A stretch of 64,000 nucleotides of DNA, taken from Chloroflexota bacterium. Its GTDB lineage: Bacteria > Chloroflexota > UBA11872 > VXNJ01. Numbering within the stretch: position 1 is the stretch's first letter; every line of letters starts with the position of its first letter. Below, piece by piece: positions 1 through 14,097 of this stretch. The translations under genes were made by a program, and so were the position numbers. A model generated the notes under the pieces. That model was not told the DNA's origin. It did not search any database and saw only the letters and a list, made by a program, of their open reading frames with translations. The DNA is taken from positions 124,001 through 188,000 of the forward strand of contig VXNJ01000001.1 of NCBI GenBank assembly GCA_009840625.1, in the 5' to 3' direction.

Positions 1-174
1 CCAGGCCAGCAGTACCTGGCGGGCGGCGATCTCGACGTCGGACAACGCCGGTCGGTTAACGCCGCCGCCTGGCGTTGCGCCGATCTCGGCGAGCTGCATG
101 TGCCGGTTCCACAACCGCTGCGGGTCGATCAGCCGGGAAGCCGGACCCGATCCCGGCGCGCCCGCTTGATTCAC
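1..174 (-). CDS. M20-family amidase (hydantoinase/carbamoylase type), N-terminal part, runs off window
   Basis: Only the first 58 codons are present; the gene continues beyond base 1. The residues seen (R-L-W-N-R-H-M-Q-L-A-E-I-G-A-T-P-G-G-G-V then N-R-P-A-L-S-D) match the N-terminal signature of N-carbamoyl-L-amino-acid hydrolases and allantoate amidohydrolases, dinuclear-metal M20 peptidases that hydrolyse carbamoyl or ureido amides. The metal-binding residues lie outside the window, so substrate and activity cannot be judged. The start is GTG at 174, sharing four bases (GTGA) with the stop of the upstream alpha/beta hydrolase, which implies translational coupling as the last visible gene of the minus-strand operon that begins with the aminotransferase at 3014. 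Confidence 0.8.
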   Translation of the reverse strand, partial: MNQAGAPGSGPASRLIDPQRLWNRHMQLAEIGATPGGGVNRPALSDVEIAARQVLLAW

Positions 175-1049
175 GAAGTGCGCATGATCTGGTTGGGATC
201 GGCGCGCGGGTCGCGTTCCCGCCAGCCGCCCGCCTCGACCGAGGCGAGGAATCCCGCCAGCAGGCGGTTGAAGAGCTCGGGCTCCTCGAGGTTTATCGTA
301 TGCCCGGTCTTGGGCAACACGGCCAGTCCGCAAGCGGGGATCGTTCGCTTCAGGAAAATCCCCGGCTGGAGGCAGTGGTCGTCTTCATCCCCGCTGACGA
401 TCAAAGTCGGGGCCGCGATTGCCCCGAGATCTGCTTCGAGGTCGTAAAGCGAGGGCCGCCGGGCCTGGACGCCGCGCATCGTGTTGGCCGCTCCCAGCTC
501 CGAGTGCCTGGCCAGCCGCTCGGCGAATGTCCGCCAGCCGCGCGGATCCTTTCCCTGGAACTGGACGCGCGAAGCTCCCTCGGCGTAAACGGGGGCAAAT
601 TCAGCCGCGCCGCGTTCGAACCCGCCGGCCACCAATTCCGAAACTTCGCGGAAGTACTCTTCGTGCTCCTTTTCGGCGCCGTAGCCGGTTCCCGCCACGA
701 CCAGCGAGCGGACCATGCCGGGATGCCGAATGGCGGCGTGCAGAACCGCGAATCCACCCATCGACAACCCAACCAGGTGAGCCGGTTCGGCGCCGGCGGC
801 GCCCAGGACGGCGACGATATCGTCGGCCGCCCGTGCCTGCGAGTAGGCTTCTACGCTTGGCGGTACGTCCGAGGGCGGGTAGCCGCGGGCCGCGTAGGTG
901 ATGCAGCGATAGCGCCCCGCGAACGCTGATACCTGGGGTTCCCAGCTCCAGTAGCTGCCGGCGAATTCGTGCACGAAAACCAACGGATCGCCGCAGCCTT
1001 CTGATTCGTAGTAGAGGCGGACACCGTCGTCGGTGGTGGCGAACGGAAT
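171..1049 (-). CDS. alpha/beta hydrolase with apparent ATT start
   Basis: A 292-residue alpha/beta-hydrolase-fold enzyme. Counting from the proposed start, the nucleophile elbow G-L-S-M-G-G places Ser96, the acid lies in S-G-D-E-D-D (about Asp221) and the base in T-G-H-T-I (His250), so the triad is complete; H-E-F-A-G provides the oxyanion region. The family-typical beginning (P-F-A-T-T-D-D-G-V-R-L-Y-Y) lies upstream of the first conventional start (TTG at 983), and no in-frame ATG, GTG or TTG precedes it outside the neighbouring SDR gene. TAGGAG followed by seven bases leads to ATT at 1049-1047, which I take as the start. It sits between an SDR and an amidase in one operon. The substrate is unknown; an ester or lactone is plausible. 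Confidence 0.85.
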   Translation of the reverse strand: MPFATTDDGVRLYYESEGCGDPLVFVHEFAGSYWSWEPQVSAFAGRYRCITYAARGYPPSDVPPSVEAYSQARAADDIVAVLGAAGAEPAHLVGLSMGGFAVLHAAIRHPGMVRSLVVAGTGYGAEKEHEEYFREVSELVAGGFERGAAEFAPVYAEGASRVQFQGKDPRGWRTFAERLARHSELGAANTMRGVQARRPSLYDLEADLGAIAAPTLIVSGDEDDHCLQPGIFLKRTIPACGLAVLPKTGHTINLEEPELFNRLLAGFLASVEAGGWRERDPRADPNQIMRTS

Positions 1050-1062
1050 GGCAGTGCTCCTA
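1047..1062 (-). promoter_or_regulatory. Shine-Dalgarno TAGGAG with ATT initiation codon
   Basis: Read on the minus strand, TAGGAG occupies 1062-1057, its TAG being the stop of the SDR gene, followed by seven bases and ATT at 1049-1047. The spacing is ideal for initiation at ATT, and this codon opens a reading frame whose first residues match alpha/beta hydrolases. Initiation at ATT is inference. Confidence 0.55.
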
Positions 1063-12388: not shown

Positions 12389-13195
12389 ATGAAGCTGTCC
12401 TGCCAGGAAAACCTGGTCCCCGGCGCTACGTTCGCCGACCGCCTGGCCAATCTCGCCGCTTGGGGATATGAGGCCGTCGAGCTCACCGACTTTGACGGGT
12501 TGCTGCGCTCGCGGGTTGCCGAGATCAAGTCCGCCCTGGCCGACAGCCCGGTCCAAGCCAGCACCATTTGCGGCGGCAGCAACGTGCAGTTCATCCACCC
12601 TGATCGGACCAAGCGCGAGGAGTCGGTCCGCCAGCAGCGCGAAATACTAAAGCTCTGCGCCGAATTCGGCGCGATCGGCTGCATAGTGGTGCCGATGTTC
12701 AATCACGACACCCGGATCCCGGGGCTCGAACCGATCGCCACGACCGGCCAGCTGCAGCGGGAACTGCTGGTCGCCCTGATGCGACCCTTGGCGCAGGAGG
12801 CCGCTGACCTGGGCGTGTGCGTGCTCCTGGAGCCTTTGATCCGCTACGAGTCCGACTTCCCGCGCGATCTGGCCGAGGCGGCCTCGATCTGCGACGAGGT
12901 CGACAGCCCGGGCCTGAAGTTGATGGCCGACTTTTTCCACATGAACGTCGAGGAAGCCGATATCGCTTCCAGTCTCAAATCGGCCGCCCGGCACCTCCGC
13001 CACGTCCACCTGGCCGACAGCAACCGGCAGGTTCCGGGGCGCGGACACACCGATTTCGTGGCGGGATTCAAGGCGCTGCGCGAGATTGGCTACGATGGGT
13101 TCGCCGCTCTGGAATGCCGGATCGCAGAACCGAAAGGCAAGACCCTCGCCGAAACGGCCCGGTTCCTCCGCGAATGCCTCGACCAGGCCCAATAG
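12389..13195 (+). CDS. xylose-isomerase-like TIM-barrel sugar epimerase/isomerase
   Basis: A 268-residue protein of the AP-endonuclease-2/xylose-isomerase-like TIM-barrel superfamily. Metal and catalytic residues typical of hydroxypyruvate isomerase and ketose 3-epimerases are visible in order: Glu in L-L-E-P-L, Asp and His in A-D-F-F-H-M-N, His in V-H-L-A-D-S, the P-G-R-G-H-T-D-F loop and Glu in A-L-E-C-R. That pattern supports isomerisation or epimerisation of a small sugar or hydroxyacid with a divalent metal in the cytoplasm. The start is ATG 12389 with GGAG six bases upstream. An alpha/beta hydrolase follows 65 bases later on the same strand. Confidence 0.88.
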   Translation: MKLSCQENLVPGATFADRLANLAAWGYEAVELTDFDGLLRSRVAEIKSALADSPVQASTICGGSNVQFIHPDRTKREESVRQQREILKLCAEFGAIGCIVVPMFNHDTRIPGLEPIATTGQLQRELLVALMRPLAQEAADLGVCVLLEPLIRYESDFPRDLAEAASICDEVDSPGLKLMADFFHMNVEEADIASSLKSAARHLRHVHLADSNRQVPGRGHTDFVAGFKALREIGYDGFAALECRIAEPKGKTLAETARFLRECLDQAQ

Positions 13196-13250
13196 CAGTT
13201 CGCGCAACCGGTGATTGACTAGCGTGGCCGATTCGCCCGCGTAGCGAAGC

Positions 13251-13263
13251 GAGGAATCCAATC
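13251..13263 (+). promoter_or_regulatory. Shine-Dalgarno GAGGA with ATC initiation codon
   Basis: GAGGA at 13251-13255 is followed by five bases and ATC at 13261-13263, in frame with the esterase. Between the in-frame stop at 13216-13218 and the conserved coding sequence there is no ATG, GTG or TTG. Initiation at ATC is inference. Confidence 0.5.
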
Positions 13264-14097
13264 GCCGCCAGAAGCCACGGCCGAATCCGCGCCCCGAGCG
13301 TTGCCGATGTTCCCTACGCGGACTTATCGCCCCGCAATGTCTGCGACATCTACCTGCCGCCGGCGGCGCCCGGCGCCGGACCCTGTCCGGTCGTGGTATG
13401 GATTCATGGAGGCGCATTCCGCATTGGCGACAAGCGCGACCTGAAGATGCCCGGTCCGATCCTGGACGCCGGGATGGCGATCGTGAGCATCAACTACCGC
13501 CTGAGCCAGCATGCGATATGGCCGGCCCAGCTTGAGGACCTGGCCAACGTGAGCAGGTTCATAAGGGCCAATGCGGCCGAATTCGGATTCGACGACGGCC
13601 GGCTGGCCGCGTTCGGGTCCTCGGCCGGCGGCCATCTGGCGGCGGTCATGGGGATCGCATTCGCCGACGATCCGGAATTGCGGATTGACGCGGTCGTGGA
13701 CTGGTACGGACCAATTCACTTCCAGCACATGGACAGCGACATCGCCTTAACCGGGGTGACACGCGGATCGCCTCCCAATGGAGAAGCCGGATCGCCCGAA
13801 TCGGACCTGATCGGCGCGGTCGTGAACGATCGCCCCGATCTGGCCTATGCCGCCAGCCCCCTGCATTACCTCGAATCGGCCGGCTCGGCGCCGCCGTTCC
13901 TGATCATGCACGGCGACCAAGACCCGCTGATCGGAGCCCCGCAGTCGGTACGACTGAAGGACGCCCTGCAGGAGCGATTCGGACCGGAAGCCGCAGAGTA
14001 CTACCTTCTATCCGACACGGGTCACGGGGGCGGCGCATTCGATTCGGATTGGGCGCAGGACCTGGTGGTTGGATTCCTCAGACGCACGTTGGCGTAA
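13261..14097 (+). CDS. BD-FAE-type alpha/beta hydrolase (esterase) with apparent ATC start
   Basis: A 278-residue esterase related to the BD-FAE/carboxylesterase group. The oxyanion motif H-G-G-A-F, the nucleophile G-S-S-A-G-G, the acid in H-G-D-Q-D-P and the base in T-G-H-G-G-G are all present. The characteristic lead-in V-P-Y-A-D-L-S, then D-I-Y-L-P-P, lies upstream of the first conventional start (GTG at 13393, directly before H-G-G), so a start there would remove two core strands. GAGGA and ATC at 13261 give the best beginning. It has no signal peptide. It probably cleaves acyl or acetyl esters; it follows a sugar-isomerase-like gene, which hints at carbohydrate esters. Confidence 0.85.
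   Translation: MAARSHGRIRAPSVADVPYADLSPRNVCDIYLPPAAPGAGPCPVVVWIHGGAFRIGDKRDLKMPGPILDAGMAIVSINYRLSQHAIWPAQLEDLANVSRFIRANAAEFGFDDGRLAAFGSSAGGHLAAVMGIAFADDPELRIDAVVDWYGPIHFQHMDSDIALTGVTRGSPPNGEAGSPESDLIGAVVNDRPDLAYAASPLHYLESAGSAPPFLIMHGDQDPLIGAPQSVRLKDALQERFGPEAAEYYLLSDTGHGGGAFDSDWAQDLVVGFLRRTLA

Follow-up and report, generated by a model that had tools for sequence, protein, structure and literature searches.

Absence of a canonical start codon before the conserved N-terminus of the esterase

Where does translation of the BD-FAE esterase in the window begin? The window is the whole 64,000-nucleotide stretch of contig VXNJ01000001.1 that was analysed, and the genome it comes from is referred to as G000. 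The gene and its surroundings comprise the following features.

12389–13195, plus strand: gene upstream of the esterase, a xylose-isomerase-like TIM barrel (PF01261) with an ATG start and a TAG end (Pfam, ORF)
13219–14097, plus strand: stop-to-stop open frame of the BD-FAE esterase, ending in TAA at 14095–14097 and without ATG, GTG or TTG before 13393
13342–13968, plus strand: match to the BD-FAE domain, Pfam profile PF20434
13393–13395, plus strand: GTG, first canonical in-frame codon, within the conserved V-V-V-W-I-H-G-G strand

The esterase frame opens after the TGA at 13216–13218 and comprises 292 codons followed by the TAA. As the initial annotation had claimed, it contains no ATG, GTG or TTG until the GTG at 13393 (codon index 58), which is inside the conserved fold. 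The product matches PF20434 over the full length of the profile (1–215 of 215) with an E-value of 1e-50 and 172.7 bits (cut-off 26.8), and by this full-length match to a curated profile it is a BD-FAE esterase. Position 1 of the profile corresponds to residue 42 of the frame, at base 13342, 5' of the GTG. By a rough estimate, 58 codons free of ATG, GTG and TTG are not in themselves rare at 65% GC, and the odd point is that this stretch spans a conserved N-terminus. Both lead-in segments, V-P-Y-A-D-L-S and D-I-Y-L-P-P, are kept in homologues, and a canonical start is present in the open frame 5' of the V-P-Y segment in 80 of 80 homologues, the best 80 of 553 confirmed candidates in the species-genome collection. 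Hence, the missing start is real and peculiar to this gene rather than a trait of the BD-FAE family, and the earlier argument that the conserved lead-in has to be translated from elsewhere holds. A shorter protein made from GTG 13393, the first canonical codon in frame, is very improbable, as it would lack the beginning of the BD-FAE domain together with the conserved lead-in, and none of the 80 homologues is without an upstream canonical start; orthologues starting at 13393, named beforehand as possible counter-evidence, did not turn up. With no ATG, GTG or TTG 5' of its conserved N-terminus in the open frame, the esterase shows one mark of a near-cognate-start gene and probably is such a gene.

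We also considered that the esterase might be a decaying gene that has lost its start codon recently. Class orthologues in genus g9 have in-frame TAG codons, two in L009 (G039) and one in L012 (G032), which point to decay there, so the esterase appears dispensable in these two genomes; moreover, the family relatives G001–G004 have no close copy. In G000, however, the 292 codons are fully open with a coding score of 68.9, the domain is full-length, and the sequences that we take for the G-x-S-x-G-type and D/H motifs appear undamaged. Decay of the gene in the window is therefore quite unlikely.

Two ATC codons as candidate starts

Two in-frame ATC codons, one of them behind a putative ribosome-binding site, are candidates for the start.

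13251–13255, plus strand: GAGGA, putative Shine-Dalgarno sequence of ATC 13261 with a predicted pairing of -7.9 kcal/mol
13261–13263, plus strand: ATC, start candidate A, five bases after GAGGA and 16 codons upstream of the V-P-Y valine
13285–13287, plus strand: ATC, start candidate B, at the onset of the coding signal and 8 codons upstream of the V-P-Y valine

The initial annotation had named ATC 13261 alone, and the start-free gap also holds ATT 13231 and ATC 13285. In homologues with a short N-terminus, the distance from the start to the V of V-P-Y is 4 to 18 codons, so both ATC codons are possible. The predicted Shine-Dalgarno pairing favours 13261 (-7.9 kcal/mol vs -1.7 for 13285), and this part of the earlier proposal stands. 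On the other hand, four class orthologues (L008, L009, L010, and L012; 43–47% identity) have their ATG at the very distance from V-P-Y at which ATC 13285 lies, and the coding signal of the esterase begins at this ATC. We lean slightly towards 13261 as the putative start for its ribosome site. The reading that we prefer, with a probability of roughly 0.7, is that the esterase gene, which looks intact, starts at an AUC (13261 or 13285) and is one of several near-cognate-start genes of an uncultured Chloroflexota order.

Further genes without canonical starts in the same genome

Because the set contained neither a congener of the window's genome nor a close orthologue of the esterase, the search was widened to other genes. 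A coding-signal scan with homology checks was applied to 564 kb of G000 (C1:84001–648000; 450 genes), a sample of a quarter of the genome. Together with the esterase (ATC), it yielded murJ (ATA), yggS (ATC), an amidohydrolase (CTG), a DUF6958 gene (CTG), and an alpha/beta hydrolase (ATT). All six have zero ATG, GTG or TTG in the open frame 5' of the conserved part. The DUF6958 gene has TAGGAG 8 nt before its CTG. The alpha/beta hydrolase lies within the window and is probably the ATT case to which the initial annotation had referred.

174–1049, minus strand: alpha/beta hydrolase, apparent start ATT (1049–1047), AGGAG upstream
1057–1061, minus strand: AGGAG, Shine-Dalgarno candidate by predicted pairing, 7 nt before the ATT of the alpha/beta hydrolase

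Endonuclease III (nth) of G000, which had seemed to lack a start, was dropped after its relatives revealed a canonical ATG further upstream.

Near-cognate codons at orthologous start positions

We then inspected the start positions of these and other genes in relatives. In murJ, GTG occupies one fixed position in all 17 orthologues shown from f2, a family of the same order. The same position in family f1 holds ATC in G002 and G004, ATT in G003, and TTG in G001; in G000 there is an ATA one residue off the fixed position, which probably is the murJ start of this genome. Counting this ATA, near-cognate codons occur in 4 of 5 f1 genomes and in 0 of 17 f2 genomes (Fisher p = 0.0007, a guide, as related genomes are not independent). 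At one shared position of uppP, CTG is present in G002, G003, and G004, TTG in G001, and GTG in G000, while all 18 f2 genomes have ATG or GTG (3/5 vs 0/18, p = 0.006, likewise a guide for related genomes that are not independent); in G003, a further in-frame GTG follows nine codons into uppP. The same codon of the amidohydrolase is CTG in G000, ATG in G001 and G003, and TTG in G002 and G004. As for yggS, G000 and G003 have ATC with no canonical codon nearby, and the 19 other genomes shown have a nearby ATG. A strong Shine-Dalgarno sequence precedes ATA and CTG in G002.

The most clear-cut single example, from outside family f1, is a cyclic-di-AMP receptor of G006. Here, CTG stands exactly at the Met of the family in 12 of the 13 genomes of genus g6 shown, the remaining one (G021) having ATA with a TTG upstream. 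The same position is GTG in 6 of 6 genomes of the sister genus g5 and ATG in 3 of 3 of family f4. Two of the twelve CTG genomes (G009 and G010) have a TTG four codons 5' of the CTG; in the others, the 25 upstream codons, or those as far as the preceding stop, include no canonical one. Over the 12 genomes, amino-acid identity rises from 0.29 in the 14 codons before the CTG to 0.91 in the 14 after it. Positional differences in codon variation appear only 3' of the CTG, and the CTG itself is invariant though nearby third positions vary. Such a conservation pattern is the footprint that would be expected of a start codon.

These comparisons also bear on the possibility that an error in the MAG masks a canonical start of the esterase, either a single wrong base (an ATC that should read ATG, for example) or an indel that connects the frame to GTG 13224 or ATG 13307. 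Both of these codons are present, in the other two frames, and the comparison rests on one assembly of the species. Random errors, however, would not be expected to recur at orthologous starts in independent MAGs as the absences do, a recurrence that does not by itself clear the single gene; we regard such an error as unlikely for the esterase. Near-cognate codons replacing canonical ones at orthologous starts of murJ, uppP, the amidohydrolase, the cyclic-di-AMP receptor, and yggS support the relaxed start-codon choice that had been suggested for this genome, with the support coming from sequence comparison and without an AUH excess in the codon-set test described below. In our reading, about 1% of the genes of this lineage would use such starts, the esterase being one of them. 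The wider proposal is that the set of start codons is enlarged across the order (AUG, GUG, UUG, CUG, AUA, AUC, and AUU) and stably used in conserved genes, including the cell-wall genes murJ and uppP, with ~1% or more of genes mis-annotated or missed; to this we give slightly better than even odds.

Controls

Two controls were scanned alongside, G045 from the same phylum (GC 0.538) and Sinorhizobium pSymB, which is closer in GC (0.621). The raw scan gave 11 hits among 450 genes in G000, 15/304 in G002, 19/297 in G006, 4/287 in G045, and 12/307 in pSymB; as the pSymB count demonstrates, the raw coding scan alone is unspecific. The hits put to Pfam were 11/11, 13/15, 19/19, 4/4, and 12/12, respectively. 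A hit was counted as a case if its domain begins 5' of the first canonical codon, and explained rows were then removed. Unexplained cases numbered 4 in G000, 4 in G002, 2 in G006, and 0 in both G045 and pSymB, with one pSymB IS transposase set aside. Those of G000 are yggS, DUF6958, the amidohydrolase, and the esterase; those of G002 are a methyltransferase (ATA), a nucleotidyltransferase (ATA), uppP (CTG), and a HAD hydrolase (ATC), whose frame has a GTG 108 codons upstream where the sequence looks non-coding. The eight cases of G000 and G002 do not include murJ (domain at 38, first canonical codon at 33) or the alpha/beta hydrolase (56 vs 57), which do not satisfy the Pfam rule in its strict form. 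Taken together, G000 and G002 have 8 cases in 754 genes and the controls 0 in 594 (p = 0.011), or p = 0.086 if the IS transposase, which we take to be a two-frame IS, is counted as a case. The difference between lineage and controls is thus modest.

Several rows were dropped. One G002 methyltransferase row has an ATG further upstream, the epimerase of pSymB has a GTG upstream, and the proline racemase of G045 has an ATG upstream. Outside the Pfam queries, nth of G002 was dropped because an ATG was seen, and prfB of G002 as explained by a frameshift, presumably the programmed one. Two further observations concern single frames. A methyltransferase frame of G002 (C2; L233 17666, minus strand) has its ATA directly after a TGA, with a very strong Shine-Dalgarno sequence, GAGGAGGAG, ahead. 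In G006, a frame from 19380 of L219 (C1:139380) has a strong coding signal, no canonical start near its onset, and no Pfam match in the truncated piece.

A codon-set test on 439 G000 genes counts against relaxed start choice, as AUH was not above control codon sets: the genes preferring a set over any canonical codon by >3 nats numbered 13 for AUH, 15 for GTH, 14 for TTH, and 13 for AAH. This test has little power for genes that lack every start. A free-motif EM of start codons (450 genes) was overfitted, its motif drifting to GATC, and was not used; both approaches rest on a weak coding signal. A tally of strong Shine-Dalgarno sequences ahead of near-cognate codons with no canonical codon nearby gave 1 in G000, 2 in G002, 1 in G006, 2 in G045, and 0 in pSymB (canonical: 34, 40, 27, 66, and 71) and is not decisive. 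By eye, the two G045 entries look like chance matches within genes.

Relation to known near-cognate starts

It is established that infC and sigR have noncanonical starts, which IF3 represses (PMC5472188). The near-cognate starts of infC are AUU in E. coli, whose infC record has ATT, and AUC in Streptomyces, and they are autoregulated by IF3 (PMC5472188). The genes described here resemble infC as conserved genes with a near-cognate AUH start, but they are several and unrelated rather than one regulatory gene, and infC of G000 itself has ATG and TTG. The sigR gene of Streptomyces starts with GTC, as proven by mutation and protein sequencing (PMC5472188); it is likewise a conserved gene whose start gene callers miss, yet a single one with experimental proof, whereas the starts described here, AUH and CUG, are proposed from sequence comparison. 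E. coli and Streptomyces mutants affected in IF3 fidelity initiate more at noncanonical codons (PMC5472188). A similar rise in noncanonical initiation is proposed here, though for a natural lineage whose IF3 has no proven defect instead of laboratory mutants. Orthologous start codons were compared among relatives in 36 genome groups by Belinky et al. (2017; PMC5622118), as was done here, and of 61,358 ancestral AUG codons, 2 had switched to CUG and 1 to AUU. In contrast to that rarity, CUG and AUH recur in several of the few genes that we examined.

The classes UBA2235 and UBA11872 are described as uncultured (PMC10608941), and we found no earlier report of such starts in this lineage in the open-licence literature. 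Gene callers accept ATG, GTG, and TTG only; consequently, genes with near-cognate starts are truncated, shifted or lost in databases. If true, such loosened start choice in nature would make it possible to trace which evolutionary changes in IF3, the initiator tRNA or the 30S subunit permit it, and to learn if near-cognate starts serve regulation, like those of infC and sigR, or are merely tolerated. The cyclic-di-AMP receptor, with its CTG invariant across a genus and GTG in the sister genus, offers a clean and directly testable example.

IF3 and the initiator tRNA

The proposed starts AUC, AUU, AUA, and CUG each differ from AUG by one base. An ordinary CAU initiator tRNA could pair with them with one mismatch, a good Shine-Dalgarno sequence may aid initiation in some genes, and the ribosome or IF3 of the lineage may discriminate less against near-cognate codons. 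The initial annotation had pointed to infC and the initiator tRNA as places to look; their inspection gave no proven defect in IF3 or tRNA. IF3 is present in G000. The EGRQ motif at the C-terminus of E. coli IF3 is degenerate in families f1 and f2, with various residues in f1 (L153 and the IF3 loci of G001–G004), and this change as a cause of relaxed starts is a lead only. While infC of G000 (L153, C1:742500–744500) has TTG and ATG starts on offer, infC of G002 and G004 lacks ATG, GTG, and TTG ahead of the conserved N-terminal part of IF3, and an ATA would fit as its start. Near-cognate starts are common in infC. One may speculate that an IF3 without discrimination would make its own feedback codon pointless.

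One initiator tRNA gene was found in G000, and it is ordinary, with a CAU anticodon and the GGG/CCC stem. A second initiator-like match (C1:649112) is not a tRNA. The one peculiarity of the gene (L284, C17:62900–63400, 246–320, minus strand) is at the acceptor end, where T1/A72 makes a Watson-Crick pair (U1:A72), as opposed to the C1:A72 mismatch in G001 and G002.
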